Shown here in pieces: positions 1,176 through 17,812 of a stretch of 18,362 nt of DNA; the stretch's first letter is position 1, and each line of letters starts with the position of its first letter. The position numbers and the translations under genes are program-made. The stretch comes from a bacterium. GTDB taxonomy: Bacteria > ARS69. Location of the stretch: the NCBI GenBank assembly GCA_025774805.1, contig JALGZR010000077.1, forward strand, positions 1 to 18,362. The letters are read 5' to 3'. The notes beneath the pieces are model-generated. The model had not been told where the DNA came from and made no database searches. It saw nothing but the letters and a program-made list of their open reading frames with translations.

Positions 1176-1712
1176 GTGATGATGACCATGCGGAAGGTTG
1201 CCGGTGCTCCCATCGCCCTGCTGGCTCTACTGGTGGCGTCCACCCCTTCCCCGGCTGCAACGTCCGGGACCTCGGACGTCATTCTCCACGCCACGGCGAC
1301 GGCGGAGCTCAGCATCGTGGATGCGAGTATCACGCTGAACCCGTCCCAGACCGACTACGAGACCGGATACGTCTCCGCCGAGGGGGCTCCCGGAATCGAC
1401 GTGAACATTCGGACCAACAGCTCGACCGGGGCGATCCTCCGGGTGCTTTGCGCCGACGGCTCGCCGGAGATCACTCTCACCGACCTGCTCTTCAAGACCC
1501 AGACGGCTCCCGGGGGCGCCGGCACCAGTCAAAGCACCTACACCGCGATCACGGCGGCCGACCAGGACCTCTGGAGCACGACGACTGCGACGGGGGTCTC
1601 CTGGACCACCATCCAGACCGACATCCGGGTCCAGAATCTGTTCAACTATGCGGACACAGGCGGCGGAACGGACTACACGAACACACTGACCTACTCGGTC
1701 GTCGTTCAGTAG
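1176..1712 (+). CDS. Secreted beta-rich protein, candidate surface-fibre subunit (paralog 1)
   Basis: I do not recognise a named family. The 178-residue product starts with a clear Sec signal peptide (hydrophobic APIALLALLVAS, likely cleavage near SPAAT) followed by a Thr/Ser/Asp-rich, strand-forming mature protein of about 150 residues. It is a paralog of the gene at 2041: both share PSQTDYETGYV, GI.V.., YTAIT.ADQ.LWST, TD.R.Q.L..Y.D, GGT.YTN.LTY.VV.Q. The ending YTNTLTYSVVVQ resembles the last strand of pilin-type or WxL-type beta-sandwiches. An AGGAG at 1166-1170 serves either the GTG at 1176 or the ATG at 1179. It lies upstream of a PapD-like chaperone and a barrel protein on the same strand, which suggests an exported subunit of a surface structure. 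The subunit role is inferred from context and fold style only. Confidence 0.75.
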   Translation: MMMTMRKVAGAPIALLALLVASTPSPAATSGTSDVILHATATAELSIVDASITLNPSQTDYETGYVSAEGAPGIDVNIRTNSSTGAILRVLCADGSPEITLTDLLFKTQTAPGGAGTSQSTYTAITAADQDLWSTTTATGVSWTTIQTDIRVQNLFNYADTGGGTDYTNTLTYSVVVQ

Positions 1713-2040
1713 GGACAACCCTCCGGGCGCGATCGGGACCATCCCGTCCGCGCTACCATGGCCCCCCCACCCGAAGGATGGATGGGGGGTCATCTGTCCT
1801 TCCCCGGTCCGCCCGCGTCGTACGGCAGCTCGCCCGATGTCTCCGTAGGACCCCCTGCCGGCCCCGGGAACCCGTCGGCCGCTCCTGCGACCGCTCCATC
1901 TCCCCCGGGCGGACCGCTCCCCACCCTGAGAAGGCCCTTCGGACGTTCTCGGCATCTTTCCGTAAGGTTCGCGGTCCTTTTGCCGAAAATAGGAAAGTCG
2001 TGTAGTCCCGCTGTCTCGCGTTAACGGGAGGGTCGGGGCA
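1713..2040. other. Intergenic gap between the two paralogous small genes
   Basis: This 328-bp gap has no convincing gene. It contains a strong G/C hairpin (1763-1789) soon after the first paralog and a Shine-Dalgarno-like GGGAGG (2026-2032) before the GTG start of the second. No good sigma-70-type promoter was seen. The hairpin could reduce read-through so that the two paralogs are made in different amounts. Confidence 0.5.
1763..1789 (+). terminator. GC hairpin after first paralog (attenuator or terminator candidate)
   Basis: Six C's (1763-1768) pair with six G's (1784-1789). The stem continues with A-T, one mismatch and two C-G pairs around a 7-base loop GAAGGAT. There is no T-run after the stem, so it is not a classical intrinsic terminator. 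It may instead attenuate transcription or protect the upstream mRNA end. Confidence 0.4.
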
Positions 2041-2520
2041 GTGCGCTCTCGTGCATTCTCCGGATTCGGAATCGCATGCCTCATGTTGCCGGTGGGTCCC
2101 GGGACTTCGTGGGCTCCACCACTCAGCATCACGATATCGGACGCGAGCGTCTCCCTGCTTCCGAGCCAAACCGATTACGAAACCGGCTATGTGGAGGCGA
2201 CCGGAGAGGCCGGAATCAACGTCCTCGTCACCACGGACAATGCGGCGGGGCTGATGCTTTACGTCCGCTGTGACGACGCGACTCCCGACATTCTCCTCTC
2301 CGACTTTCTGGTCCGGTGTTCCACCCCCGGGACGCTCATGTCCTCCTATACCGCGATCACCGGGGCGGACCAGGCGCTCTGGTCCACCGACAGTGCAGTC
2401 ACGGACGAGGGCGTGGACACGGACGTGCGGATCCAGGGACTGTGGAGCTACCCGGACGCCGCGGGCGGTGGCACGACGGCGTATACGAACTCTCTGACCT
2501 ACACGGTGGTGGATCAATGA
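2041..2520 (+). CDS. Secreted beta-rich protein, candidate surface-fibre subunit (paralog 2)
   Basis: This 159-residue protein has an N-terminal signal peptide (FSGFGIACLMLPVGPGTSWA) and a mature region homologous along its length to the product of the gene at 1176. Shared blocks are DAS..L.PSQTDYETGYV, D..P.I.L.D.L, YTAITGADQALWST, TDVRIQ.LW.Y.DA.GGGT.AYTN and SLTYTVVDQ. Unlike paralog 1 it has two cysteines flanking the DDATPDILLSDFLVR segment, so an intramolecular disulfide is possible; paralog 1 has only the first. The start is a GTG with GGGAGG about 8 bases upstream. Its stop overlaps the ATG of the chaperone gene (ATGA at 2517-2520), so the two are probably translationally coupled. I infer a subunit or client of that chaperone; no database family is claimed. 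Confidence 0.78.
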   Translation: MRSRAFSGFGIACLMLPVGPGTSWAPPLSITISDASVSLLPSQTDYETGYVEATGEAGINVLVTTDNAAGLMLYVRCDDATPDILLSDFLVRCSTPGTLMSSYTAITGADQALWSTDSAVTDEGVDTDVRIQGLWSYPDAAGGGTTAYTNSLTYTVVDQ

Positions 2521-3728
2521 AGGGGCATCGAGACGCGAATGCCAGAAGGGCGATCATGACTCGCGTCGCGGCCATCTTCCTGGTTCTGAATGCGCCCGCA
2601 ATCGCGGACATGCGCATGGCCATCACCCCGGCGAAGCTCCAGCTCTCCCTCGAGCCGGGAGCTTCCCACGTGGCGACCGTGGAGGTGAGCAACAACGGGG
2701 ACGACGCGATCCGCATGATCAGTTACGTCGCCGACTGGACGACGTCCCGGGAAGGCGGGATGGTATTTCTTCCTTCCGGTGCCGTCGACCGGTCCGCGGC
2801 CGCCTGGGTGGAGGCCGATCTGTCCGAGTTCATCCTGCCCCCGCACGATTCACGGATCGTCCGCGTGAGCGCGAGCCTGCCGGACACCGCGCGGGGCTCG
2901 TACTGGGCTCTTCTCTTCTTCGAAGGGGAAGGCGAGACACGTGAGGGACGGCTCGGCGTGGCCGCGAAGGCGCGGATGGGGACCACAATCTACTTGACGG
3001 CGTCGGGAACCGACGAGCGGGACGACGTCCTGACCGGGATGGAGGTCGAGAGGACTGCCGCCGCCGATTCGCTGCAGCTCGTCACCTCCCTCGCGAACCG
3101 CGGAAACGTCCACTACTACCCGGACGGCTGGTTCCAGGTCCTCGATGAAAGCGGTCAAGTCCTGTTCGAGGAGAAGCTCCCCCTCCGCGTGCTGCTTCCC
3201 GGAAGAGAGACGGTCTACCGTATCCCGTGGCGTCCCGAGTCCGCGGGGTCCCGCCGGCTGGTCGTCACCGTCGATCCCGGTCTCGAGACCCTGATGCAAG
3301 GAATCAAGCGGTTCGTGGTTCCCAAGCCACCGGCACGCGGGCCGGCGGCCATCCCGGAGCGGCTCGTCGCACAGGCGACACCGCTCCCCGCCGATGTCGA
3401 TTCGCCTCGCGCGTCGCCGCCCGGTGAGAGGACTGCCGCGGTCCACGAGACGCGGCCCATCCCCGACGCCCAGGCCGAGTCCACCTTGCCCTACGGCGTG
3501 CACGTCGAATCGTTCACGACCCGTGCGGAAGTCGCCGTCGCGAAGCGTCGGTATTTCGCGCTGGATTGCCCGATCACGGTCAGGACGGTCAACCTGGAAG
3601 GCAAGGGAACTTGGCATCAGATCATTCTCGGGCAATTCGCCGACAAGGCGGAAGCGCAGGAGTTCAGCAAGGGGCTGGATGAGATACTTGACCTGGAATA
3701 CATGGCGGTCGTCCGCTTCGATCCGTAG
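2517..3728 (+). CDS. PapD-like periplasmic chaperone fused to a C-terminal SPOR domain
   Basis: The 403-residue protein has a hydrophobic signal segment (residues 14-30, MTRVAAIFLVLNAPAIA), then a first Ig-like domain (about 32-165). That domain runs ITPAKLQLSLEPGASHVATVEVSNNGDDAIRMISYVADW... FILPPHDSRIVRVSASLPD... GSYWALLFFEGE, the layout of the PapD/fimbrial-chaperone N-domain, also seen in DUF916-like WxL-associated proteins. A second Ig-like domain follows (about 170-270, LANRGNVHY, GRETVYRIPW), then a Pro/Ala-rich linker (about 270-325) and a SPOR-like domain (326-401, YGVHVESFTTRAEV..., IILGQFADKAEAQEFSKGL). SPOR domains bind denuded septal peptidoglycan. The ATG at 2517 overlaps the previous stop; Met14 (2556), with AAGGG before it, gives a more usual signal peptide and is an alternative start. 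The likely role is to fold or hold the two small secreted proteins while bound to the cell wall. The chaperone function is inferred. Confidence 0.75.
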   Translation: MKGHRDANARRAIMTRVAAIFLVLNAPAIADMRMAITPAKLQLSLEPGASHVATVEVSNNGDDAIRMISYVADWTTSREGGMVFLPSGAVDRSAAAWVEADLSEFILPPHDSRIVRVSASLPDTARGSYWALLFFEGEGETREGRLGVAAKARMGTTIYLTASGTDERDDVLTGMEVERTAAADSLQLVTSLANRGNVHYYPDGWFQVLDESGQVLFEEKLPLRVLLPGRETVYRIPWRPESAGSRRLVVTVDPGLETLMQGIKRFVVPKPPARGPAAIPERLVAQATPLPADVDSPRASPPGERTAAVHETRPIPDAQAESTLPYGVHVESFTTRAEVAVAKRRYFALDCPITVRTVNLEGKGTWHQIILGQFADKAEAQEFSKGLDEILDLEYMAVVRFDP

Positions 3729-3758
3729 CGCGGGTGGAATGCAGCGCCCCCGGAGCTC

Positions 3759-6392
3759 ATGAAACAGAAACTGGCCGCCGTCGCAGTTCCCGTTATCCTC
3801 CTCGTCGGGATCATCTCGCTCATCGGGAGATCTCCGTCATCCCCGGAGACCGCCGAGAGAGAAGAGCCGCTCGACCTCGATCCTCACACCCCGAGGGTCT
3901 TTCCCACTCAGATTGATTCTGCGCCGCGCGACGAGGACCCGACACGCTCCGTCGTGGTCTCACGCGATCCAACGCGGCACGAACGGCGGGAGACCGGGAG
4001 ACCGGAAGAGGACCCATCGCGCGGTAGGACCGCCGTCACACAAGATGAGAGCGCGAGCGTCCGACCGGAGGGTCGGACGGGGTCGGATCCCTCCCGGCCG
4101 GAATCAGACGAGCCGGCATCAGGCACCTTCGCCCCCCGCTCGCCGCTCCGGCCGGCGGGGACATCGAACGTCGAACCGCGACTTGACGATCTTTCGTTCG
4201 ACACGTTCGAAGTTCGCCAGATCCCTCTGTCCGATTTTCCCGCCGCCGGGGCCACGCATCGGCGGACCCGCGAGCGAAAGGCCCTGGCGCGCGCGTCCGA
4301 AGGGCGGCCCGCATTCCGACCCACCGCCCCGGGGGCGGGCCCGACCCTGTGGGACGAGATGGCGCTTCGCGTCTCGAGTACACAGAACCGCCCGCGAATC
4401 GGAGCTGCGACCCGCGAGGGCTGGTACGACCTGAGGCTGGCCCGCTGGCTCCAGGCCGGTCGGCTCGACCTGGGCGCTCGGGTCGGGGACCGCAACAACG
4501 ACCTCTACCTAGCCCGGGGATACGTCGAGTTCGAGTCCCGAACCGGATGGCTCGCGGCAGTCGGGGACCAGACGGTCGGGTACAGCGGTGCGGGGCTCCA
4601 TGGAACGACGGCCCGGGGCCTCCGCATGGAGCATGCGGGGGGCTCATCGACTGCCTGGAGAGCGGGCCTCATGGCCGGCCGTGCGGCCGTGCATTATGCC
4701 AATCTCGTCAAAGGGGACTTCCCGCGAAGCCTGGAAGCCGGCTATCTCAAGATGGACCAGCGGCGCCGTCAGTCCATCGAAGGAGTTGCCTATCACTTCT
4801 CCGATCGGGACGCGGGGAGCTTCTCGGCTCCTGACGGTGTCCAGGCCGGCTCCGGGATCGGTCTCGTCGGGTCGTTTCGCCGGACGGGCCTGGACCTGCG
4901 CGGCGATCTCGCGGTTTCGGACGTGCACTACCAGGCCGGTGACGAGCGGCAGGGGCGGACGGCCGGCATTCGAGGGCGCGCGGATCGCGGCCCGTTGACG
5001 CTTTCGGGGCGCTACCAGGAAACCGGTGGCACCGCCTACGAGGTCGGATCTCTCGGCATTCTCCAGCCGACGCCCCGGCGGATCGAGGACGTGAATCTCT
5101 CCGTCCGACCCGGCGCCGGGTTCGGCCTGAGTGCCTGGGCCGGTCGCTGGCGCTATCCGCCATCCTTTCTGGCCGACACTTTGGGGTCGAACGTCGAAAG
5201 GTACTCATTGCGGGGAAACCGGGGGGGGGTAAAGCTCTCCTGGAAGAGCCCTCGCGGCGGAACCGGTCTCTCCGCGTCGCGGGAGTTTCGTCGGCGGTCC
5301 CTCGAGCACGGCTCCGAAGACGTCGTCACGCGGAACGCCTCCGTTTCGCAGAGGTTCCGGCGGGGTCTCAACGCTTCCCTCATCTGGAACCAACTCGACT
5401 ACACCGGCCGAGCCCCTCACGACTACGTGACCGGATCTGTGAGCCTGCGTGTAGGGCGGGGCGGCACGCTGACGTTGCAGCAGCGGACTCTGTGGCAGGA
5501 ACCCGTCGGGCCGCGTCTCGAGTCGATTGCCGACCTGTCGTCGATCCGCGCGCTCGCGGGGCGGCTGCTCCTGTCGGCCCAGATCGCCCTGAGGCACGAG
5601 GGGCAAGAGGATGGCCGCTTTCACCGAGTCCAGACGCAGGGGCGGCTGTCCGGCGACTATCGCCTGGGGCGAGACGTCCGATTCTCCGGTCGCTACCAGC
5701 TGAGCCACTCCCCGGGAGGGGATGTACACACGATCGATCTCGCGCTGAGTCACCAACTGGGCCGGACCAGCGAAGTGTTTCCCGGTTCCGGATTGGATCC
5801 TGTCGGCCTGGACCGCCAGATCGTGATCGGCCGTGTCTTCGATGATCGAAATCACGACGGGAAATGGCAGAGTGATGAACCCGGCATCCCCGGCGTGGAG
5901 ATCGCGATCGACGAGGAGACTCGCGAGCCGGTGGTCACGGACGTGAGCGGTGTCTACCGCGCCTTCCTGCGCATCGGCCGGCACTTCCTGCGGCTGTTGC
6001 CGGCCTCCGTGCCGATCGAGTATGCGCTCGACGGAGCCGGGCCGATCGCGCTGGAAGTCATGTCCGACCGGACCGCCGGACACGACTTCGCGCTCAGGCA
6101 CCGCGCGGGGTCCATCGAGGGGTTCGTTCTCGACGATCGGTCGGGTGAAGGAGTGCCCGACGTGAGGATCTACCTGCGCGACCACTTGTATACATACACC
6201 GACGCGACCGGCGCCTACCGGTTCCAATCACTGCCCACCGGCGACTACGACGTTCGCATCGACACGGACACCCTTCCGTTCGGCTATCGGCCCGTGGGCT
6301 CGCAGGGGACGCGGGTTCGCGTGGAGGAGTCGGGCGAGGTCGGTCAATGTGTCTTCCGTGTTTCTCGCCCGATACGCGTGACCGAGTTCTAG
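3759..6392 (+). CDS. Large envelope protein: membrane anchor, disordered linker, predicted beta-barrel, two Sdr/CnaB-like domains
   Basis: 877 residues. Residues 5-22 form one hydrophobic segment (LAAVAVPVILLVGIISLIG) without an obvious signal-peptidase site. Next comes a charged, Pro/Arg/Glu/Ser-rich linker (about 25-190). From about 197 to 680 there are many alternating short strands with aromatic and Arg/Gly pattern (GRLDLGARVGDRNNDLYLARGYVEF, WLAAVGDQTVGYSG..., LSGRYQ), as expected of an outer-membrane barrel; VGD...LHGTTARGLRM recalls usher-type barrels. At about 689 DDRNHDGKWQSDEPGIPGV is a calcium-binding Sdr B-type motif opening a first carboxypeptidase-regulatory/Sdr-like domain. A second starts near 783 (GSIEGFVLDDRSGEGVPDVRIYL..., TDATGAYRFQSLPTGDYDVRI). 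The last residue is Phe. GGAG sits 3 bases before the ATG, 30 bp after the chaperone gene, so the two are one operon. The most likely role is an usher-like or anchoring partner. Barrel topology is a prediction by eye. Confidence 0.7.
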   Translation: MKQKLAAVAVPVILLVGIISLIGRSPSSPETAEREEPLDLDPHTPRVFPTQIDSAPRDEDPTRSVVVSRDPTRHERRETGRPEEDPSRGRTAVTQDESASVRPEGRTGSDPSRPESDEPASGTFAPRSPLRPAGTSNVEPRLDDLSFDTFEVRQIPLSDFPAAGATHRRTRERKALARASEGRPAFRPTAPGAGPTLWDEMALRVSSTQNRPRIGAATREGWYDLRLARWLQAGRLDLGARVGDRNNDLYLARGYVEFESRTGWLAAVGDQTVGYSGAGLHGTTARGLRMEHAGGSSTAWRAGLMAGRAAVHYANLVKGDFPRSLEAGYLKMDQRRRQSIEGVAYHFSDRDAGSFSAPDGVQAGSGIGLVGSFRRTGLDLRGDLAVSDVHYQAGDERQGRTAGIRGRADRGPLTLSGRYQETGGTAYEVGSLGILQPTPRRIEDVNLSVRPGAGFGLSAWAGRWRYPPSFLADTLGSNVERYSLRGNRGGVKLSWKSPRGGTGLSASREFRRRSLEHGSEDVVTRNASVSQRFRRGLNASLIWNQLDYTGRAPHDYVTGSVSLRVGRGGTLTLQQRTLWQEPVGPRLESIADLSSIRALAGRLLLSAQIALRHEGQEDGRFHRVQTQGRLSGDYRLGRDVRFSGRYQLSHSPGGDVHTIDLALSHQLGRTSEVFPGSGLDPVGLDRQIVIGRVFDDRNHDGKWQSDEPGIPGVEIAIDEETREPVVTDVSGVYRAFLRIGRHFLRLLPASVPIEYALDGAGPIALEVMSDRTAGHDFALRHRAGSIEGFVLDDRSGEGVPDVRIYLRDHLYTYTDATGAYRFQSLPTGDYDVRIDTDTLPFGYRPVGSQGTRVRVEESGEVGQCVFRVSRPIRVTEF

Positions 6393-6928: not shown

Positions 6929-7133
6929 AGCGGGTCCCTCGTTCGGTGATGCGGCGTGCTCCGGGCAGAGTGCAGCCGCGCGCGAACGTCAGCATAGCCC
7001 GGCGCGGATCGGACTGTCCATGGTGCGAGCCATCTCGGTACGAGACGGGGGAAACGAATCGGGCTAGGATGGGCTCGTCCACCGACGAATCGGCCGCAGC
7101 GCGGCCCGCCAACGAGGAAACGGAGGAGAATCC

Positions 7134-8132
7134 GTGAAGATCGAACGGGTGTCCGGGATCGCCGTTTTCATCGCCCTTGTGAGCGCCCTGGTAGGACGGG
7201 CAGGGGCTGACCGCGCAACCGAGGCCGGTGCGCCCGCCGGCGACTCCATCGTGAACCTGTACGACGCGTTCGGGGCGGAGGTGTCGGGCATGGTGCAGGA
7301 CTTCGGGTTCTCGGCGCTGATCCGGTACCGAGGTACGACGATCCTCTTCGACGCCGGGACCAACGCCGATATCCTGGCGAAGAACGTCGAGGCGGCCGGC
7401 GTCGACCTGCGCGACGTGGACTTCGCCGTCGCGTCCCACAGCCACTTCGATCACATCAGCGGCTTCGACCACGTGCTCGACGTGAACCCGGACCTGAAGA
7501 TCTACTTCCCGAACGATCCGTTCTGGGGCGCGCCGATGCCGTTCGACGCCACGGGAACGGATCCGAACGCCGCCGAGGGCCTGCCGACCGACCAGTGCTA
7601 CTTTCACGGCGAGAAGACCCGTTTCACCTTTCAGTCGAGCGGGCGGTTCTGGAACGCGAACGTGGAGTTCGTGAAGGACCACACGGAAATCGCTCCGGGG
7701 ATCCATCTGATCGTGACTCGGTCGCCCTTCGTCGGCTATTTCAGCCGCTATCCGAACACGGGGATCGCCGGCGATCAGGACACGTCGGCGGTCAAGACCC
7801 TCGGCCTGCCGGAGCTGTCGCTCAGCCTGGCCACGTCGGAGGGAGAGGTGCTAGTGGTCGGCTGCTCTCACAGCCTCGTCGACGTCATCACGCGCACGGC
7901 GCGCGAGCACGTCGATCGCGACGTGGCGATGGTGATGGGCGGTTACCATCTGCTCCCCTACGGCGAGGAGGAGATCCGGGGTATCGCCGACCGGATGCGC
8001 GAGGAGCTCGGAGTCGGGGTGGTGGCGCCAGCGCACTGCACCGGACATCTTGGCTTCAAGCTGTTCCGCGAGATCTTCGGGGACGACTTCCTCCACGCGG
8101 GCTTGGGGGCAACGATCACGATTCCCCACTAG
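7134..8132 (+). CDS. Exported MBL-fold metallohydrolase, DHPS-like subfamily
   Basis: 332 residues. The metallo-beta-lactamase fold is shown by HSHFDH at 102-107 (HxHxDH, dinuclear metal site), GCSH (243-246), GGYH (269-272) and APAHCTGH (298-305). This combination matches the subfamily named after the methanopterin-pathway dihydropteroate-synthase-like enzyme (often annotated 7,8-dihydropterin-6-yl-methyl-beta-ribofuranosylaminobenzene 5'-phosphate synthase). In most bacteria that annotation is nominal and the substrate is unknown. The N-terminus has a hydrophobic signal segment (IAVFIALVSALVGRAGA), so this copy is probably periplasmic or secreted, which fits poorly with a cytoplasmic pterin role. 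GTG start with GGAGGAG 5-6 bases upstream. Length is slightly above the usual size because of the leader. Confidence 0.88.
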   Translation: MKIERVSGIAVFIALVSALVGRAGADRATEAGAPAGDSIVNLYDAFGAEVSGMVQDFGFSALIRYRGTTILFDAGTNADILAKNVEAAGVDLRDVDFAVASHSHFDHISGFDHVLDVNPDLKIYFPNDPFWGAPMPFDATGTDPNAAEGLPTDQCYFHGEKTRFTFQSSGRFWNANVEFVKDHTEIAPGIHLIVTRSPFVGYFSRYPNTGIAGDQDTSAVKTLGLPELSLSLATSEGEVLVVGCSHSLVDVITRTAREHVDRDVAMVMGGYHLLPYGEEEIRGIADRMREELGVGVVAPAHCTGHLGFKLFREIFGDDFLHAGLGATITIPH

Positions 8133-8245: not shown

Positions 8246-9634
8246 TTACCGCCCACCGAGGGCCGAGGCTTCAGGGAAGAAGACGAGCACATCGGCCTGC
8301 TCCCGCAATCGTGTGGCGGCCACGGATCCGTTCTGAAGGAAGTTCCTCTCCTTGGAGAGGTAACCAGCCCTCGGATCCTCCGAAGCCAGCTGCAAATGAA
8401 AAGCCCGGCCGCACTTGGCCAAGAGACTCTCGATCGTCCCGGGTGTGCTCGCGACGGCGGCGACGCCCGAATCCTCGAGCACCGTCCCGTGTCTGCCGCG
8501 ATCGTAGGTCATCCAGATGGCCAGGACCTGATCCGGGTAGCGTCGGTTGAGAACAGTCCCGATTGTCGTCCACAGGGTGGGTGCCGAGGATTCGGCCGGA
8601 CCGAGGCGAATCCGCTCACTCTCCTTGTTCAGGTGGAGATTGTGACCCAGTAGGATGACCCTCGCGTCCGGTGGGAGCTCCGCGAGGATCATATCAAGCC
8701 GTTCCGACATGGCCTTCTCTCGATCGATCAGCGCTTTGATCCAAGAGCGCGACCGTGGGCCCTCGTGTGCGGCCTCGCGGAAGCGCAACGCGTCTGCTTC
8801 ATGTCGAACCAACTTCCTCAGTTCATTCGCATGGGCGGGGCCGAGAAGCCCCTCGACCGCCTCCGCTGCTTCACCGGTGAGATGAAACAAGAGCTCTTCC
8901 AACCTGGCTGCCTGCTCTACCCTGGTCTCGCCCGGAACGTCCGCCAGTCGCAGGTGGAGATCGTCCCTCAGCGTTCCGGAGGGTAGTCCCGAGATGCGAC
9001 TCCGCGCTTCCTCAATCCCGACGCCCGGCAGCAGGCCCAGGTCGTACCCGAACCAGCGAAGTCGCTGCTCGTCGTTGGGGAGGCTGGCGTTCAACTCACG
9101 AAGGCCGGCCAGAAAGCTGAATTCGTCGGCCCGAAAGGCCTTCCGGAACTCCGGGTTGTTCATCCCCGGGAATCCGATGGGAAGGTCGTCTCGGTCGACA
9201 CGCCGGCCGCCCGCATAGCCGTAGAGAGCCACCAGGTCCAGGTGGATCTCATTGCCGGAATCGAGATAGCGATCTACCCGTATGCCGTCCGCAAAATCCA
9301 TCTCCATGCCTATGTAGCGCCAGCCCGCGGAGAAGAGGTGGCGAATGAGTGCCAGCCGGTACTCGTACTTCTGCTGGACCCAGTGGTCGGAGGTGCCGAG
9401 GGAGATGATTCGCTTGCCGGTCAGCAGGGTGTCCAGGGTCGTCCAATCGGTTCGGACGGGTTCCCCGTTCGACCCTTCGGAGATGGGCATTGCGGTCTCC
9501 ACGACCCACTCGAGGAACGCTGCCTCCTCGGCTTCCGGGGCTGTCGCCGACAGGGCCGCGGAAGCATTCGAAGAGAGCGCAGCAAAAAGGGACAGCATGA
9601 ACAGGCCGCGGATTCCTTGACGAACGGGATTCAT
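8246..9634 (-). CDS. Erythromycin esterase-family protein, exported
   Basis: 462 residues from the ATG at 9634, chosen because GAGGTG lies about 7 bases upstream and the product then begins with a signal peptide (MNPVRQGIRGLFMLSLFAALSSNASA). An upstream GTG at 9763 would add 43 unlikely residues. The family fold (Ere/succinoglycan-biosynthesis type, PF05139) is seen in IISLGTSDHWVQQKYEYRLALIRHL (residues 77-100), WRYIGMEMDF (Glu111), a RE.AMSERLDMIL helix and the block ILLGHNLHLNKES (His331, His334). Ere enzymes hydrolyse the macrolactone ring, but many relatives have other or unknown substrates. The family normally has LGE..H in the first motif; here it is LGT..H, so the catalytic-centre Glu is Thr81 while His84 is kept. 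It lies downstream of and co-directional with the LuxR gene. Macrolide resistance is not supported by this alone. Confidence 0.85.
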   Translation of the reverse strand: MNPVRQGIRGLFMLSLFAALSSNASAALSATAPEAEEAAFLEWVVETAMPISEGSNGEPVRTDWTTLDTLLTGKRIISLGTSDHWVQQKYEYRLALIRHLFSAGWRYIGMEMDFADGIRVDRYLDSGNEIHLDLVALYGYAGGRRVDRDDLPIGFPGMNNPEFRKAFRADEFSFLAGLRELNASLPNDEQRLRWFGYDLGLLPGVGIEEARSRISGLPSGTLRDDLHLRLADVPGETRVEQAARLEELLFHLTGEAAEAVEGLLGPAHANELRKLVRHEADALRFREAAHEGPRSRSWIKALIDREKAMSERLDMILAELPPDARVILLGHNLHLNKESERIRLGPAESSAPTLWTTIGTVLNRRYPDQVLAIWMTYDRGRHGTVLEDSGVAAVASTPGTIESLLAKCGRAFHLQLASEDPRAGYLSKERNFLQNGSVAATRLREQADVLVFFPEASALGGR

Positions 9635-9805
9635 CGTTTTCACCTCGGAGGAGGACATGTGGATGCGAGAGGTGGGCGGTTCGCGTTCATAGGTCAGGAA
9701 AGCCGTCCACGCGGACGCCGGCAATCGCCCGAAAGGGGTAAATGTGGAGGATATCGGGGTCACCCCAAGGAGTGACTGAACCGTAACTGGCCTGAAGACA
9801 GTGGA

Positions 9806-11432: not shown

Positions 11433-12728
11433 ATGAAGTGCTCCGCCATCACTCTGGCCGTCCTTCTTCTCCTGGCCCCGATCGCTTCGGCCCAGTGGAT
11501 CCCCGTTCCCGATCCTCCCAATAGCTTCCAGGGCATCGAGCTCTTCCTCGCCGGCGATGATCGGATCTACGCCGGCACCTTCAACGGCAGGGTCTTCGGC
11601 AGCACGGACCACGCCGACACCTGGACCGAGATCGCCGACGGCCTACCGGAGGCTGACTACTCCATCGTGATGGGCATGGTCATCGTCGGCGACTGGTTCA
11701 TCATGAGCCGTTTCGGACTCAGCGAGGACGACGACCTCAACTTCCGCTCCCACCGCGACGGCACCTCTTGGTCGACCTGGGAGCCCCTCGCCTACCAGGA
11801 CGAGAACTTCTCCTCCTTTGCCGCGATCGGCGGGACACTCTTCGCAGTTCGCGGAGGCAGCGCGATCTACCGCACCGACGACTTCGGCGCGACCTGGTCG
11901 GCGGTCACGGCGCCCAGTGCGAACTCGGGCTGGAAGATCTTCGCCCGCGAGAGCCGCCTCTTCGCCGCCGAGCAGATCACCAACAGCGGCACGGTCTACC
12001 GGTCCGACGACCTCGGCGCGACCTGGACCGAGATCGGTGGCGGTCTCGGCTCGTCCTACGTCTGCTCGGAGATCTACTGGCAGGGCCGTCTGCTGGTCTG
12101 CGTCTACCACGGTGGGGGCGTCGGGAGCTTCTGGTCGTCGATGGACTTCGGCGACAACTGGGAAGAGATCACGACCCTTCCGACCGGGTACAACATCAAC
12201 GGCATGGCGATCGCGCAGGACGGGCGCCTCGCCATCGGCGCGGCGAGCGGGCACCCGACAAGCGCGAGCATTTGGCTCAGCGACGACCTCGTCGACTGGG
12301 AGGACTACACCGGCGACCTGCCCCAGCATTCCTGGCCGTTCAACAGCCTCGTCGCTCACGACGGGTGGTTCTTCAAGTCCGGCGGCACGACTACCGAATA
12401 CCGCGCGCCGCAACCCGCGGCGACCGCCGTGAACGAGAACGTTGCGAAAGCAGCAGCTCTCGAGCTGACGGCCCGCCCCAATCCCTTCCATCCGAAGACC
12501 ACGCTTCGCTTCGTGCTCGAGGAGGCATCTCACGTCGACCTGAGCGTTTACAATCTCGCGGGCCGGCGCGTGGCGACGATCGTCAGCAGGCCGATGCCCG
12601 CCGGGACGCGTGAGCTGCACTGGGATGGGCGCGACGAATCCGGCCGGCCGCTCGCCAGCGGCGTCTACCTGGCGCGGCTCCACACCGGCATCGCGGATCA
12701 GAGCCTGCGGGTCGTTCTGCTGAGGTGA
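11433..12728 (+). CDS. Secreted Asp-box (BNR) beta-propeller protein with FlgD/Por-type C-terminal tail
   Basis: 431 residues. A signal peptide (MKCSAITLAVLLLLAPIASA) is followed by a sialidase-like propeller with repeated Asp boxes: STDHADTWTEI, RTDDFGATWSAV, RSDDLGATWTEI, SSMDFGDNWEEI and a degenerate LSDDLVDWEDY. From about residue 343 a C-terminal Ig-like tail has ARPNPFHPKTTLRF, VDLSVYNLAGRRVATI, AGTRELHWDGRDESGRPLASGVYLARL, the FlgD-Ig/type-A sorting form used for surface attachment or type IX-like export. No sialidase Arg triad or FRIP motif is evident, so enzyme activity is not claimed. GGGAGGTG precedes the ATG by 5-6 bases. It is convergent with the kinase gene. Confidence 0.85.
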   Translation: MKCSAITLAVLLLLAPIASAQWIPVPDPPNSFQGIELFLAGDDRIYAGTFNGRVFGSTDHADTWTEIADGLPEADYSIVMGMVIVGDWFIMSRFGLSEDDDLNFRSHRDGTSWSTWEPLAYQDENFSSFAAIGGTLFAVRGGSAIYRTDDFGATWSAVTAPSANSGWKIFARESRLFAAEQITNSGTVYRSDDLGATWTEIGGGLGSSYVCSEIYWQGRLLVCVYHGGGVGSFWSSMDFGDNWEEITTLPTGYNINGMAIAQDGRLAIGAASGHPTSASIWLSDDLVDWEDYTGDLPQHSWPFNSLVAHDGWFFKSGGTTTEYRAPQPAATAVNENVAKAAALELTARPNPFHPKTTLRFVLEEASHVDLSVYNLAGRRVATIVSRPMPAGTRELHWDGRDESGRPLASGVYLARLHTGIADQSLRVVLLR

Positions 12729-12816: not shown

Positions 12817-15507
12817 TCACTGCCAGGCGGCGGCCGTCTCACTTTCCTCATTCCTCCTCGTCAGTTCCTCCACGATCGCCTCGAACCCCCGGTCGCCATG
12901 GAGAGAGGCGAGGTCAGGGTCATCGAGTATCGGCATGTTCGGCTGACGGTAGCCGTTGTCCAGGGCGTCCCGCAGGATCCCTAAGGCCTCGTCTCGGCTA
13001 CCTCGCAACGCCGCGTGGCACGCGAGGTTATAGCGGACGCGGTTTGTCGTCGAGTGACCCTCGCCGAGGACGAGACGGCTGATCTTCAAGGTCTCTCGCC
13101 GAAGCTCCTCGGCCTCGTCGAGGCGTTCCTGCGCTCTGAATATGGCGGCGAGAGCATCCATGCGATCCAGGGTCTTCTGATGCTCCTCGCCGAGGACGCG
13201 ACGGCTGGTCTCCAGGGTCCCTCGTCGGAGCGCCTCGGCCTCGTCGTAACGGCCCTGCTCCTTGTACGACGCGGCCAGGAGCTCCATCGTATGTAGGGTG
13301 CTCGGGTGCCCTTCCCCGAGGACTCGGCGCTGGATCTCAAGGGCCTCTCGCCGGAGGGCCTCGGCCTCGTCGTAACGGCCCAGCCTCTTGACCGTGGAGG
13401 CGAGGTTCCCCATGGACAGGAGGGTCGTCGGGTGCTCCTCCCCGAGAACTCGGCGCAGGATCTCCAGTGTCTCTCGCAGGAGGACCTCGGCCTCCTCGTA
13501 CCGCCCCTGACGCGCGTAGGTATTCGCGAGGTTTCCCATGACAAGGAGGGTGCTCGGGTGCTCGTCGCCGAAGACTCGCCGCCTGGTCTCCAGGGTCTCT
13601 CGCTTGAGTGCCTCGGCCTCTTCATGCCGGCCCTGACTCGAGTACGTGGCCGCGAGGTTCCCCATGGCCTTCAAAGTCTTCGTGTGCTCCTCCCCGTGGA
13701 CGCGGCGATGGATCTCCAGACTCTCTCGTAAGAGCGCTTCGGCATCCTCGTACCGGCCCTGACTCCAGTTCGCGCTTGCCAACACGCTCATCGAGGTCAG
13801 AGTCTCCGGATGCTCCCGCCCGAGGACAGGGCGGGCGAGCTCCAGGGTCTCTCGGGCGAGCGTCTCGGCCTTCTCGGAAAGGCCTTGCCCCAGATACGCG
13901 TTGGCCAGGTCGTTTCTGGCGTTGAGCGTTCCGAGGTCCTCCTCCCCGAGCCGCTCGCACCGGATCATCACTGCTCTCCGTAGGTGCTCCACCGCGGCAC
14001 CGTACTCCCCGAGCGCGTAGTACGTATTCCCCACGGTGTGGCGGAGACGGGCCTCGACCAGCGGCTGGTCCCGGAACTTCTCTCCGAGCGTCTTCGCGGT
14101 CTCGTCGAGCGTCTCGCGCAACGAGACGTCCCGCCCGCTCCGGGTCGGAGCCAGGGAGGCCAGCATCTCCTCGAGCGAGGTGGTCACGAGCATCGCCTCG
14201 TCCCGAGCGGCCGCGATCTCCGCCTTCTGAACCGTGATCACGACGAGCCCCACCCCTACGGCGAGGAGAATCGTCGCCGCGAAACCGACGCCGACCCGGT
14301 GCCGCTTCACGAACTTCCAGGATCGGTAAACCGCGCTTGGCGGCCTTGCCAGGACGGGCTGATCGCTCATGTGACGCCGCACGTCCTGCGCCAGCTCACG
14401 CGGTGACCCGTATCTGCGGTAGCGGTCCTTCTCCAGCGACCGCATCACGATCCAGTCCAGGTCGCCCTTCAGCTCCCCGGCCAGGCGGCGCGGCTCCGTC
14501 CGTCGGGCCCGGGCGATCTCGGTCGTCCTCTCCCCGAGTGTCGAGATCTTCGTGCTCGGCCGCGGGGGGTCCTTCTCCCGCAGGGTCTTCAGGATCCCCT
14601 CGAGTCCCGCCCTCCGGAGCTCGTCCGGATCGAACGGCAGTGCACCCACCAGCAGCTCGTAGAGCACTACACCCAGCGAGTAGACGTCCGTGCGCGTGTC
14701 GACGTCCTCGCCCGTGAGATCCGCCTGCTCGGGGCTCATGTACTCGGGCGTGCCGATGATCTGACCGAGCGCGGTTTGTATCGTCTTCTCGGTCAGGTTC
14801 TGAGTGGTGGCCTTCGCCACGCCGAAGTCGATGATCTTCGGGAGCGGCTCTCCGTCCACGTCGGCCACCAGGATATTGGTCGGCTTGATGTCCCGATGGA
14901 GCACGGCCTTCTCGTGCGCGTGCTGCACTCCCTCGCAGACCCGCTCGAAGAGCTCCAGCCGCTCCTTCGTGTCGAGCCGGTGCCGGTCGCAGTACTTGAC
15001 GATCGGGACGCCGGGGACGTGCTCCATCACGAAGTAAGGGCGGCCGCGCCCGGTGACGCCGGCGTCGAACACCTTGGCGATGTAGGGGTGGTCCATCAGC
15101 GCCAGTGCCTGACGCTCGGCCTCGAAGCGGGCGAGGACCTGGCGGGAGTCCATGCCGGCCTTGATGAGCTTGAGGGCGACGGTGCGCCGGACCGGGGAGG
15201 TCTGCTCGGCCATCCAGACCTCGCCCATGCCTCCGCCGCCGATGCGCTCCCGGAGGAGGTAGGAGCCGATGCGGTCGGATACGGCGTACGCCGGCTCTTC
15301 TTCCACCTCGATCCGGTTGGCGGCCGGGTCCGGCTTCAGGAAACTTCCCATGCCGTCGTCGTGACGCTCGAGGAGGCTCTCTACGAGAGCGCGGAGCGCA
15401 GGATCGTCGCCGCAATGCTCCTCGAGGAGGGCGGCGCGGTCACCGAGAGGAAGATCCGCGGCGGACTGGAAGATGAACTCCGCTCGAGTCAGCCTTTCCT
15501 CGCTCAA
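12817..15507 (-). CDS. Transmembrane Ser/Thr protein kinase with TPR sensor/scaffold region
   Basis: 896 residues. The N-terminal helical segment (1-75) is followed by a Hanks-type kinase (about 82-375) with all key motifs: Gly loop GGGGMGEVW (90-98), Lys113 in ALKLIK, HRDIKPTN (204-211, Asp206), DFG (227-229) and GTPEYMSPEQ (252-261). One membrane helix (about 406-426) separates it from about nine TPRs (490-855), seven of them exact 42-residue units of kinesin-light-chain type. The kinase is thus predicted cytoplasmic and the TPRs outside the membrane. The start is a TTG supported by AGGAGG 5 bases upstream. The preceding sigma-factor stop overlaps that AGGAGG, so the genes are tightly coupled. 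This ECF-kinase arrangement is known in Planctomycetes, Acidobacteria and relatives, where the kinase is thought to control the sigma factor in place of an anti-sigma protein. Confidence 0.93.
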   Translation of the reverse strand: MSEERLTRAEFIFQSAADLPLGDRAALLEEHCGDDPALRALVESLLERHDDGMGSFLKPDPAANRIEVEEEPAYAVSDRIGSYLLRERIGGGGMGEVWMAEQTSPVRRTVALKLIKAGMDSRQVLARFEAERQALALMDHPYIAKVFDAGVTGRGRPYFVMEHVPGVPIVKYCDRHRLDTKERLELFERVCEGVQHAHEKAVLHRDIKPTNILVADVDGEPLPKIIDFGVAKATTQNLTEKTIQTALGQIIGTPEYMSPEQADLTGEDVDTRTDVYSLGVVLYELLVGALPFDPDELRRAGLEGILKTLREKDPPRPSTKISTLGERTTEIARARRTEPRRLAGELKGDLDWIVMRSLEKDRYRRYGSPRELAQDVRRHMSDQPVLARPPSAVYRSWKFVKRHRVGVGFAATILLAVGVGLVVITVQKAEIAAARDEAMLVTTSLEEMLASLAPTRSGRDVSLRETLDETAKTLGEKFRDQPLVEARLRHTVGNTYYALGEYGAAVEHLRRAVMIRCERLGEEDLGTLNARNDLANAYLGQGLSEKAETLARETLELARPVLGREHPETLTSMSVLASANWSQGRYEDAEALLRESLEIHRRVHGEEHTKTLKAMGNLAATYSSQGRHEEAEALKRETLETRRRVFGDEHPSTLLVMGNLANTYARQGRYEEAEVLLRETLEILRRVLGEEHPTTLLSMGNLASTVKRLGRYDEAEALRREALEIQRRVLGEGHPSTLHTMELLAASYKEQGRYDEAEALRRGTLETSRRVLGEEHQKTLDRMDALAAIFRAQERLDEAEELRRETLKISRLVLGEGHSTTNRVRYNLACHAALRGSRDEALGILRDALDNGYRQPNMPILDDPDLASLHGDRGFEAIVEELTRRNEESETAAAWQ
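13051..13932 (-). repeat. Seven tandem 126-bp TPR-coding repeats
   Basis: Within the kinase gene the GEEHPxTL signature recurs at residues 521, 563, 605, 647, 689, 731 and 773, with a final variant at 815, exactly 42 residues apart. Neighbouring units share long stretches (QGRYEEAEALLRETLE, RRVLGEEHP), suggesting recent tandem duplication or ongoing homogenisation. Confidence 0.85.
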
Positions 15508-15512
15508 GTTCG

Positions 15513-15518
15513 CCTCCT
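15513..15518 (-). promoter_or_regulatory. Ribosome binding site for the TTG start of the kinase
   Basis: AGGAGG on the minus strand, 5 bases before the TTG at 15507. It overlaps the TAG stop (15517-15519) of the sigma gene. This decides the rare TTG start and implies coupled translation. Confidence 0.7.
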
Positions 15519-16104
15519 AGTCGGTCTTCCCGCGCCATCCCGGGGCGAGCTGCGCATGAAGCAGCGCGCGCGCGAAACGCCAGTCACGCTTCACCGTGGG
15601 CTCGGAGATGTTCAGAACCTTGGCGGTCTCTTCGATCGTGAGCCCGGCGAAGTAGCGCAGCATCACGACATCGCACTTGCGCTTGTCGCGCCGGCGCAAG
15701 CTCTCCAGTGCCTCGTCTAGCGCGAGCACGTCTTCGGAAGGCATCTCGATCGGGATGTCGATCTCGTCGGCGTTCAGTCGCTTGCTGCCGCCGCCATGCT
15801 TGCGCCGTCCCTTACGCCGGGCCTGCTCGACCAGAATGCGGCGCATGGCCAGCGCCGCCGCGGCGAAGAAGTGGCCACGGCCGTTCCAGCCGGGGTCCCC
15901 CGTCCCGATAAGCCGGAGGTAAGCCTCGTGGACGAGCGCGGTGGGCTGGAGCGTGTTGCCGGGCGGTACCTTGGCCATCAGGGAGCGGCCGAGCTTGCGC
16001 AGCTCCGCATAGACGATCGGGAGCAGCCTCTCCGCTGCGGTGGGGTCCCCGGCCTCCACGGCCTGGAGGACCCGGGTGACCACGCTCTGCCCGGACTCGG
16101 TCAT
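15517..16104 (-). CDS. ECF-subfamily RNA polymerase sigma factor (TIGR02999-like)
   Basis: 195 residues. Region 2 (about 10-100) has LLPIVYAELRKLGRSLM, TLQPTALVHEAYLRLIG and WNGRGHFFAAAALAMRRILVEQARRK, the signature of the ECF group that pairs with Ser/Thr kinases. Region 4 (about 135-186) has a helix-turn-helix, CDVVMLRYFAGLTIEETAKVLNISEPTVKRDWRFARALLHAQL, for -35 recognition. No anti-sigma gene is adjacent. The kinase gene begins 9 bases downstream, so the two form an operon, and phosphorylation-based control is the likely mode. Starts at an ATG with only a weak Shine-Dalgarno. It is divergent from the WDG-repeat protein gene. Confidence 0.93.
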   Translation of the reverse strand: MTESGQSVVTRVLQAVEAGDPTAAERLLPIVYAELRKLGRSLMAKVPPGNTLQPTALVHEAYLRLIGTGDPGWNGRGHFFAAAALAMRRILVEQARRKGRRKHGGGSKRLNADEIDIPIEMPSEDVLALDEALESLRRRDKRKCDVVMLRYFAGLTIEETAKVLNISEPTVKRDWRFARALLHAQLAPGWRGKTD

Positions 16105-16208
16105 TGAAGAAATTCGCCCCTTCGCTGATCCATTTTAGCTGTCCCCGTCGGACTGTTCAATGTGCGGGCGAGAATGGGTAATCTCGGTGAGGGGCGTTGG
16201 ATGTCACA

Positions 16209-16247
16209 CGGGACCTCGTCCCGGCACCCACATGATCCGGGATCATG
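16209..16247. promoter_or_regulatory. Two perfect palindromes between sigma factor and WDG-protein genes
   Basis: CGGGAC-CTC-GTCCCG (16209-16223) and CATGATCC-G-GGATCATG (16231-16247) lie 7 bases apart in the 229-bp divergent region. The second has 8-base arms around one central base, the form of a dimeric repressor operator. It is about 86 bases before the ATG at 16334 and about 127 before the sigma start. Regulator unknown. Confidence 0.5.
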
Positions 16248-16333
16248 ATCTTGGCGGCGTGAGGCGTAGACGACGTCCGCGGGGCCGCTCCAGTTCCCGG
16301 GGAAGGACGAACATTGAGGACATGGAGGATGTC

Positions 16334-17812
16334 ATGACGGTCAATCGTTCGATTGTCTGCGCGTCGTACCGGACTCTCTTTCGGAACGGCCTACTCATAG
16401 CGTTACTCGCACTATCCGTTCCGGAAGCTCGTTCCCAGTGTGTGCCTGGCTGGGAGACATATCCTGACTTCCAGACGAACGCCGTCTATGGCGTCTGTGA
16501 ACACGAGGGTGTCCTTTACCGGGGCGGGTGGTTCTGCCTGTTCCGTTGGGATGGAAGCGAGTGGGAGATTTTTGGGGGTGGAATAGGAGGGGATATGGCG
16601 ACCCTGTACGCTGCAGACTTCAGACCTTACGGAGGCGTTCTCGTCATCGGTGGACGCTTCCCGATCGCGGGGTCGACGATCGTCAACTCGATCGCGACCT
16701 GGGACGGATCGGAGTTCGGGCCGCTGGGAACTGGTGTCGACGGAGAGATTCTATCCCTCGTCACCTATCGCGGTGACCTGATCGCCGGGGGCCTGTTCGA
16801 GAACGCTGGTGGTAGGCCGGCGCACAATATCGCGCGATGGGACGGGAACGAGTGGCATCCGCTCGGCTCCGGTGTCTACGATGCGGTTCCGGACGGGACG
16901 ACCGACGATGTGTGGGACATGGTCGTTTGGCAGGGGGATCTCTATGTTGTCGGCAGCTTTACTCACGCCGGGGGTGTCGAGGTCTCCTACCTGGCCCGGT
17001 GGGATGGTTCCACGTGGTCGGACGTGGGCGGCGGTGTTTCGATGATCGGCGGAGGGCCGACAGGACTCCGCGGTGTCGACGTGTACGACGGCAAGCTCGT
17101 GATCGTCGGGTGTCTCGACTATGCCGGCGGAGTCGAAGCGACCAACATCGCCCAGTGGGACGGCGTGACCTGGTCCCCCCTTGGCTCGGGGTCGGATCCC
17201 TATGATGATATGTGGGGATGGAGGCAGGCGGCGCTGTCGGTTGCCTCCTACCGGGGTCTCCTCTATGTCGGAGCCGATTTCAGTGAGGCCGTAGGAGAGG
17301 CCGCCGCGGTTCTTGCCGTATGGGATGGCGTGAGCTGGGAGCCGGTGGATAATGGACTGGACGGAGAACAGTGGCCCCTCGGGCCTTACATACGCGACCT
17401 GGAGGTTGCCGGCGCGGGGATGACGGCGTCTCTCCTGATGGGCGGGAACTTCAACGAGGCCAATGGTGAGGAAACGGATAATGTGGCTCGCTACACCAAT
17501 TGCGACGAGACGACCGACGTGGTCACTGCGCCGCAAACCGACGGACCACTGCAAGTTCATCTGTCTCCGAATCCGACAAAGGCGAGGTTTCGATACACGA
17601 TTCGGCTCGAGAGTCGATCGGACGTGAACGCAGCGCTTTTCGACGTAAGAGGGCGACGAATCGAGTCGTTGATCGATCAGCCCCTTTCTGCCGGGATCCA
17701 CAGCTTTCATGGTTATCTGGACAAACGTGGGGCACGAACCGGCGGAGTCTATTTCCTTCGCGTCGAGGCAGAAGGGTCAGCGGTGACGAGAAAGCTGACC
17801 GTGATTCCCTAG
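16334..17812 (+). CDS. Secreted WDG-repeat beta-propeller protein with Por-type C-terminal tail
   Basis: 492 residues from the ATG at 16334, chosen because GGAGG (16324-16328) lies 5 bases upstream and a signal peptide follows (LLIALLALSVPEARS). An in-frame upstream start at 16160 would add an Arg-rich, non-secretory leader. The body has repeated blade motifs IATWDGSEFGPLGTGV, IARWDGNEWHPLGSGV, LARWDGSTWSDVGGGV, IAQWDGVTWSPLGSGS and LAVWDGVSWEPVDNGL. Each is followed by a 'G-L-Y/I-V-G-G-x-F' strand (DLIAGGLFENAGG, DLYVVGSFTHAGG). From about residue 405 the tail LHLSPNPTKARF-type motif, ALFDVRGRRIESL and GVYFLRVEAEG is a type-A/Por-like sorting domain. No enzyme motif is seen. Its stop codon is the first triplet of a dispersed repeat. 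Confidence 0.85.
   Translation: MTVNRSIVCASYRTLFRNGLLIALLALSVPEARSQCVPGWETYPDFQTNAVYGVCEHEGVLYRGGWFCLFRWDGSEWEIFGGGIGGDMATLYAADFRPYGGVLVIGGRFPIAGSTIVNSIATWDGSEFGPLGTGVDGEILSLVTYRGDLIAGGLFENAGGRPAHNIARWDGNEWHPLGSGVYDAVPDGTTDDVWDMVVWQGDLYVVGSFTHAGGVEVSYLARWDGSTWSDVGGGVSMIGGGPTGLRGVDVYDGKLVIVGCLDYAGGVEATNIAQWDGVTWSPLGSGSDPYDDMWGWRQAALSVASYRGLLYVGADFSEAVGEAAAVLAVWDGVSWEPVDNGLDGEQWPLGPYIRDLEVAGAGMTASLLMGGNFNEANGEETDNVARYTNCDETTDVVTAPQTDGPLQVHLSPNPTKARFRYTIRLESRSDVNAALFDVRGRRIESLIDQPLSAGIHSFHGYLDKRGARTGGVYFLRVEAEGSAVTRKLTVIP

Follow-up and report, generated by a model that had tools for sequence, protein, structure and literature searches.

A stretch of 18,362 nucleotides from a draft bacterial genome (contig JALGZR010000077.1 of assembly GCA_025774805.1, hereafter the window) carries four open reading frames, all on the + strand, which probably encode a chaperone-usher (CU) pathway strongly diverged from the known CU types (Table 1). 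The source genome comprises 5.1 Mb in 284 contigs, and its phylum is represented by five genomes in our collection. The first two genes specify small proteins with hydrophobic N-termini that are paralogous to each other (51% identity over 136 aa, E 5e-40), the third a protein with two Ig-like domains, and the fourth a larger protein with a predicted beta-barrel. The ATGA at 2517-2520 belongs to both gene 2 and gene 3, and gene 4 begins after a gap of 30 bp. The initial annotation of the window, made from its letters alone, had described such a locus, with two paralogous secreted subunits, a PapD-like two-Ig protein overlapping the second of them and a barrel protein 30 bp further on; the reading frames, the paralogy and the chaperone profile alignments given below bear this out. 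It had also proposed a surface-fibre or coat system, with a chaperone-like and an usher-like protein, that fits none of the classical, archaic or alternate CU types. The conserved gene order supports such a system, and it lies beyond the sequence models for the known types, PF00577 and PF00345 both being unmatched.

Table 1. Features of the candidate chaperone-usher locus, in window coordinates.
Feature	Position	Strand	Basis
Subunit 1, secreted, pilin-like by prediction; proposed polymerising subunit, 178 aa	1176..1712	+	Open reading frame; paralogy; AlphaFold2 model; fold matches
Subunit 2, paralogue without N-terminal extension; proposed tip or chain-end subunit, 159 aa	2041..2520	+	Open reading frame; paralogy
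Chaperone: signal peptide, two Ig-like domains (~nt 2607-3326), C-terminal SPOR, 403 aa	2517..3728	+	Open reading frame; HHalign; PDB profile match
G1-like donor strand RLGVAAKARMGTTIYL, including Arg153	2949..2996	+	Alignment with archaic chaperones
SPOR domain at the C-terminal end of the chaperone	3501..3725	+	0.0038 (below cut-off); L090 orthologue 1.9e-10
Putative divergent usher, 877 aa, with a hydrophobic N-terminus and a disordered linker ahead of the barrel (nt 4356-5756) and two beta-sandwich domains at the C-terminus	3759..6392	+	Open reading frame; AlphaFold2 model; Foldseek; family profile
Conserved motif F-x-[VL]-R-[QR]-I-x-x-[SA]-[DE]-F-P-x-A, immediately N-terminal of the barrel, at the expected place of the usher N-terminal domain	4206..4247	+	Orthologue comparison
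Loop joining predicted strands 6 and 7 (residues 293-322), where PapC has its plug insertion; plug domain absent	4635..4724	+	AlphaFold2 model
SdrD_B domain, aligned on usher C-terminal domain 1	5832..6104	+	Pfam match; profile alignment
CarboxypepD_reg domain, aligned on usher C-terminal domain 2	6111..6365	+	Pfam match; profile alignment

The same gene order was sought in related genomes. The complete four-gene locus, with its order kept, was found in three further metagenome-assembled genomes (MAGs) labelled Candidatus Eisenbacteria, at the loci L090 (also L114; OFTM309), L091 (also L115; RS_13_32) and L116 (GL140), the first two of which sit in phyla of the collection other than that of the window. 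The subunits of these loci are 42-75% identical to the two window subunits; the chaperones show identities of 47-63% and the barrel proteins of 35-50%. The subunit family is sparsely distributed, because among 386 sampled genomes it is confined, save one borderline match, to these few lineages and is present in none of the four remaining genomes of the window's own phylum. Horizontal transfer of the locus is likely, and the MAG contig may have been misbinned (estimated contamination 5%).

Neither subunit matches a family in Pfam or NCBIfam, the WxL domain included. For subunit 1, AlphaFold2 (AF2) predicted a beta-sandwich over residues 43-178 with a predicted local distance difference test score (pLDDT) of ~84, preceded by disordered residues 1-38 (pLDDT < 50). 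Its best PDB match in Foldseek was a CS20 pilus subunit (E 2.6e-3, probability 1.00), and most top rows in VIA-align were subunits known for strand exchange (TLP-1, FimG, FimA, FimH, PapG, CfaE and CsuE; Z <= 7.8). The model thereby suggests a pilin-like sandwich. Subunit 1 carries an extension of ~15 residues (AATSGTSDVILxAxAT; approximately residues 28-42, nt 1257-1301) after the signal peptide and ahead of the first strand, and in all four genomes subunit 1 has this N-terminal extension whereas subunit 2 lacks it. In CU pili, the N-terminal extension serves as donor strand, and subunits that lack it can be placed only at the end of a chain. By sequence inspection, the main and second SCPU-type proteins of the archaic CU loci that were read differ from each other in the same way.

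The third gene product gave a sub-threshold WxLIP_PGBD match and a PF06030 match below its cut-off. A profile of its family, compared with the PDB, matched EfmWxLIP1 (9i25, 9i1y) full-length over both domains (4e-13), and the sole pilus chaperone in the match list was EcpB (0.047). As a reference for archaic CU systems, we used loci from a single class of the collection, whose gene content suggests that it is probably myxobacterial; three of the chaperones were verified as PF00345. With HHalign, the single window chaperone aligned with these PF00345-positive chaperones at 97.0% (E 9e-11, 205 columns), the four orthologues at 97.9%, and a 31-member family with signal peptides removed at 99.4% (4e-21). 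Domain 1 and domain 2 each matched the archaic chaperones on their own, and the reversed control gave 0.1%; some distant members of the family, used singly, do not match PapD-type chaperones. The alignment includes the G1 strand, which PapD-type chaperones lend to their subunits, and which reads RLGVAAKARMGTTIYL in the window and GLKVLTRVSIPVFV in the archaic chaperones. Arg153 falls at the position of the basic residue preceding the PVF of the archaic chaperones, in a column that is R in 22 of the 31 family members, and Lys40 (nt 2634-2636) falls at the position of the archaic first-strand Arg, with Lys in all four orthologues. We take these two basic residues to be the counterparts of Arg8 and Lys112 of PapD, as a reading of the alignment and not as a structural test. 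The profile comparison thus places the chaperone, with both of its domains, in the PapD superfamily.

The match to EfmWxLIP1 raises the question of whether the locus is instead a diderm WxL/WxLIP cell-surface cluster, in which the two-Ig protein and the small proteins would form a surface adhesion complex and the barrel would serve as an anchor or porin with no part in fibre assembly. The full-length homology to EfmWxLIP1 fits such a cluster, as do the adjoining genes for small secreted proteins and the SPOR tail of the chaperone, since SPOR domains bind peptidoglycan in other proteins. This tail is sub-threshold in the window, clear in L090 and absent from L091 and L116. We consider a WxL-type cluster improbable, however, given that the alignment of the same chaperone with those of the PapD type takes in the G1 motif, that the subunits combine a pilin-like predicted fold with the difference in extension, and that the barrel protein has an usher architecture with equivalents of the usher C-terminal domains (CTDs), as follows.

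The fourth gene product ends in matches to SdrD_B (1e-11) and CarboxypepD_reg (5e-13). An AF2 model built on a 24-sequence alignment (pLDDT 69, predicted template modelling score (pTM) 0.52) gave low confidence for residues 1-195, then a barrel of ~24-26 strands at residues 200-666, then two beta-sandwich domains. In a Foldseek search of the PDB with this model, ranks 1-14 were all FimD or PapC (best 6.8e-19, ~800 alignment columns), and other outer-membrane barrels followed at 2e-8 or weaker. Using VIA-align, the barrel and the C-terminal domains together were covered by ushers only; matches in a viral fold library were confined to CnaB and porin-like folds. The model, at its pTM of 0.52, therefore points to the usher fold of a large barrel followed by two C-terminal domains. 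The family profile placed window residues 708-834 on residues 632-761 of the archaic ushers, that is, on CTD1-CTD2 (95.8%, 7e-9), and a second column setting extended the alignment to 361 columns spanning half of the barrel and the CTDs (96.7%; reversed control 0.2%). The column setting -M 30 was discarded because even short overlaps scored high with it. In two family members, L027 and L108, the matches to the usher plug and to the CTDs follow each other in the usher order, whereas CnaB-type proteins taken from elsewhere score no more than 7%. One PF00577 usher has its own weak CarboxypepD_reg match at the C-terminus. CarboxypepD_reg is found in 23 and SdrD_B in 22 of the 24 family barrels. 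These alignments argue that the SdrD_B/CarboxypepD_reg pair is the equivalent of usher CTD1/CTD2 and not an addition, contrary to the initial annotation, which saw no obvious usher C-terminal domains.

The N-terminal part of the protein varies. In the window it is hydrophobic and continues into a long disordered linker, neither of which is conserved; the L116 protein opens with a signal peptide or lipobox, and its N-terminal part is short. The membrane anchor, the linker and the SPOR fusion, which had been taken as defining features of the system, each differ between the four orthologous loci. The SPOR tail, present in the window and L090 only, and the long linker or hydrophobic N-terminus of the barrel protein (not in L116) are lineage-specific additions and not part of the core. 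All four orthologues have a short conserved segment, FEVRQIPxSDFPxA, ahead of the barrel. In L090 (8842-12429), several variant copies of it lie in the long linker. A 'GD...RG' pre-plug motif was considered as an usher signature and rejected: it occurs in 14 of 29 family barrels versus 6 of 48 background proteins, and it is not at that place in the ushers used.

Several results weigh against the locus being a CU pathway. PF00577 has no match in the window protein, in the 24 family barrels or in the window's genome, and the PF00345 hidden Markov model matches none of the 31 chaperone-family members. A relation of the subunits to SCPU pilins was considered and rejected, as none is apparent in sequence, and their fold match stays below the level that would exclude a common arrangement (Z <= 7.8; no Foldseek E < 1e-3). 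The single window barrel sequence reaches only 2.7% against ushers, and the usher identity of the window protein rests on the AF2 model (pTM 0.52) and the family profiles. Its bare barrel is not usher-specific in VIA-align (Z of 14.9 for OccK, 14.3 for LptD and 14.0 for PapC). No N-terminal usher recruitment domain (NTD) was recognised: residues 22-195 are mostly at pLDDT < 50 and match no family. The distant relative L027 shows no similarity to the usher NTD (0.1%). In PapC, strands 6 and 7 flank the plug insertion (PMC4356140). At this site the model of the window protein has a 30-residue loop and no plug domain, as the initial annotation had it for this protein, but the absence does not extend to distant members such as L027, in which a plug-like insert is present.

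The missing plug, together with a barrel geometry common to many outer-membrane barrels, would suit a barrel acting as a general outer-membrane channel, through which single subunits are secreted or displayed to form a coat and are not polymerised. Against such a channel stand the two usher-like C-terminal domains, kept in 22-23 of the 24 family members, and the two subunits that differ in a donor-strand-like extension, and we regard it as very improbable. A closer alternative is that the locus belongs to the archaic (sigma) CU class as a fast-evolving member without separate status. Its gene order is that of the myxococcal archaic loci and its chaperone aligns full-length with archaic chaperones; moreover, while CU pili have mainly been described from proteobacteria, the archaic class is also reported from Cyanobacteria and Deinococcus-Thermus (PMC4654587). 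PF00577, PF00345 and SCPU fail family-wide, however. In addition, the chaperone matches WxLIP by plain HMMER (4e-13) whereas its best PapD-type PDB match is EcpB at 0.047, and the N-terminal domains are variable and the plug is missing. Membership of the archaic class therefore appears unlikely.

In the divergent CU pathway that we favour, subunits 1 and 2 would reach the periplasm via Sec. The two-Ig chaperone would cap each subunit by lending its G1 strand, anchored by the two basic residues, and would deliver the capped subunit to the barrel protein, whose two C-terminal beta-sandwich domains, as CTD1/CTD2 equivalents, would hold the chaperone-subunit complex. The N-terminal extension of an incoming subunit 1 would then replace the chaperone strand, with the fibre growing outward through the barrel, and subunit 2, which has no extension, would either start the chain as its tip or end it. 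The window usher has no recognisable NTD or plug, so recruitment and gating would need other means, perhaps the conserved FEVRQIPxSDFPxA segment and, for the window genome and L090, also the peptidoglycan-binding SPOR tail of the chaperone. The genes with their paralogy and synteny, the homology of the chaperone, the equivalence of the CTDs, the predicted folds and the difference in extension come from computation; the strand exchange, the fibre, the parts played by the two subunits and the gating are inferred from them.

Many distant genomes show the wider pattern, in which a small secreted protein and a two-Ig chaperone accompany a barrel that ends in two beta-sandwiches. Relatives were found by the chaperone profile in 52 of the 386 broadly sampled genomes (E < 1e-12). 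The neighbourhood was read for 48 such chaperone genes; 40 adjoin a gene for a small protein with a signal-peptide-like N-terminus, and 25 adjoin a barrel gene of the same family on the same strand. The latter count is partly circular, because the barrel model was built from those loci. However, most of the neighbouring barrels were also hit when the window or L027 barrel served as the sole query sequence, and chaperone-adjacent barrels in at least nine other genomes were recovered by a profile made from the four close barrels. The system occurs in several phyla and is not recognised as chaperone-usher by the standard protein-family libraries; no description of this gene combination was found in the open-access literature (preprints outside scope). 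If the homology of the system holds across these genomes, strand-exchange fibres would be far more widespread than annotation shows. Tentatively, and with rather less confidence than for the locus itself, we suggest that these loci may represent an unrecognised deep-branching CU class across many diderm phyla, with a chaperone family that includes the Gram-positive WxLIPs, so that WxL clusters and CU pili would share an ancestor, and with ushers that work without NTD and plug. The WxLIP link offers a testable origin for both the WxL and the CU systems. Which usher parts fibre assembly needs could be probed with an usher that lacks both NTD and plug.

A search of the contigs of the window's genome with the window chaperone alone gave no match. 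The same genome contains a second CU-like locus (L024, contig C244, 3727-8591) with a small subunit, a chaperone with three Ig-like domains, and a barrel protein that begins with a T2SS/T3SS_pil_N-type domain and ends in SdrD-type domains, as well as a third chaperone-family gene (L025, contig C44, 8657-9496) with no barrel gene nearby. In three distant genomes (L029, 2494-8333; L109, 5562-9536; L096, 5057-10380), chaperone-family proteins with two or more Ig pairs adjoin secretin-like, not usher-like, products, which might represent an alternative exporter for subunits of this kind. A 0.8-Mb genome (G063) has two chaperone-family genes (L107, 5757-9330) and no barrel gene in the stretch read.

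The gap between the two subunit genes measures ~220-330 nt across the orthologous loci. A terminator or attenuator in the window gap (1713-2040) was considered and rejected, as the window hairpin is not better than shuffles and L091 has no hairpin; the L090 gap (6964-7182) contains a strong, perfect 14-bp hairpin (z -3.6). An Rfam search gave no match. Elsewhere in the window, a serine/threonine kinase with TPR repeats is encoded on the - strand (12817-16104), directly downstream of a gene for an extracytoplasmic function-type sigma factor (PF07638, 8.5e-57). Two secreted propeller-like proteins with C-terminal sorting-type ends are encoded on the + strand (11433-12728 and 16160-17812), the first with a FlgD_ig match (4e-10), and an erythromycin-esterase family protein on the - strand (8246-9763; PF05139, 3e-17).

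Compared with known systems, the locus is closest in layout to the archaic CU loci of the myxobacterium-like genomes, defined by SCPU, PF00345 and PF00577, and to Csu pili. It shares with them the order subunit-chaperone-usher, a chaperone homologous over both domains with the G1 motif and the basic residues, an usher-like barrel with two C-terminal beta-sandwich domains, and subunits with and without an N-terminal extension. It differs in matching none of these three families, in its usher without recognisable NTD or plug and with SdrD_B/CarboxypepD_reg-like CTDs, in subunits of an unrecognised family and in the SPOR domain of its chaperone. With type 1 and P pili it shares the predicted fold of the barrel protein, for which FimD and PapC are the best PDB matches; identity to them is ~11-12%, however, and the NTD and plug present in the E. 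coli ushers are absent. The Gram-positive WxL/WxLIP (DUF916-DUF3324) clusters share with it a full-length homologue of its chaperone, EfmWxLIP1, and adjoining genes for small secreted partners, but the window locus is diderm, has an usher-like barrel and has subunits that are not WxL; a text search of PMC10599100 found no chaperone role mentioned for WxLIP. Although PF00577, the plug, the recruitment domain and SCPU are not found, the chaperone superfamily and the usher architecture are, and by function the locus would work like a CU pathway.

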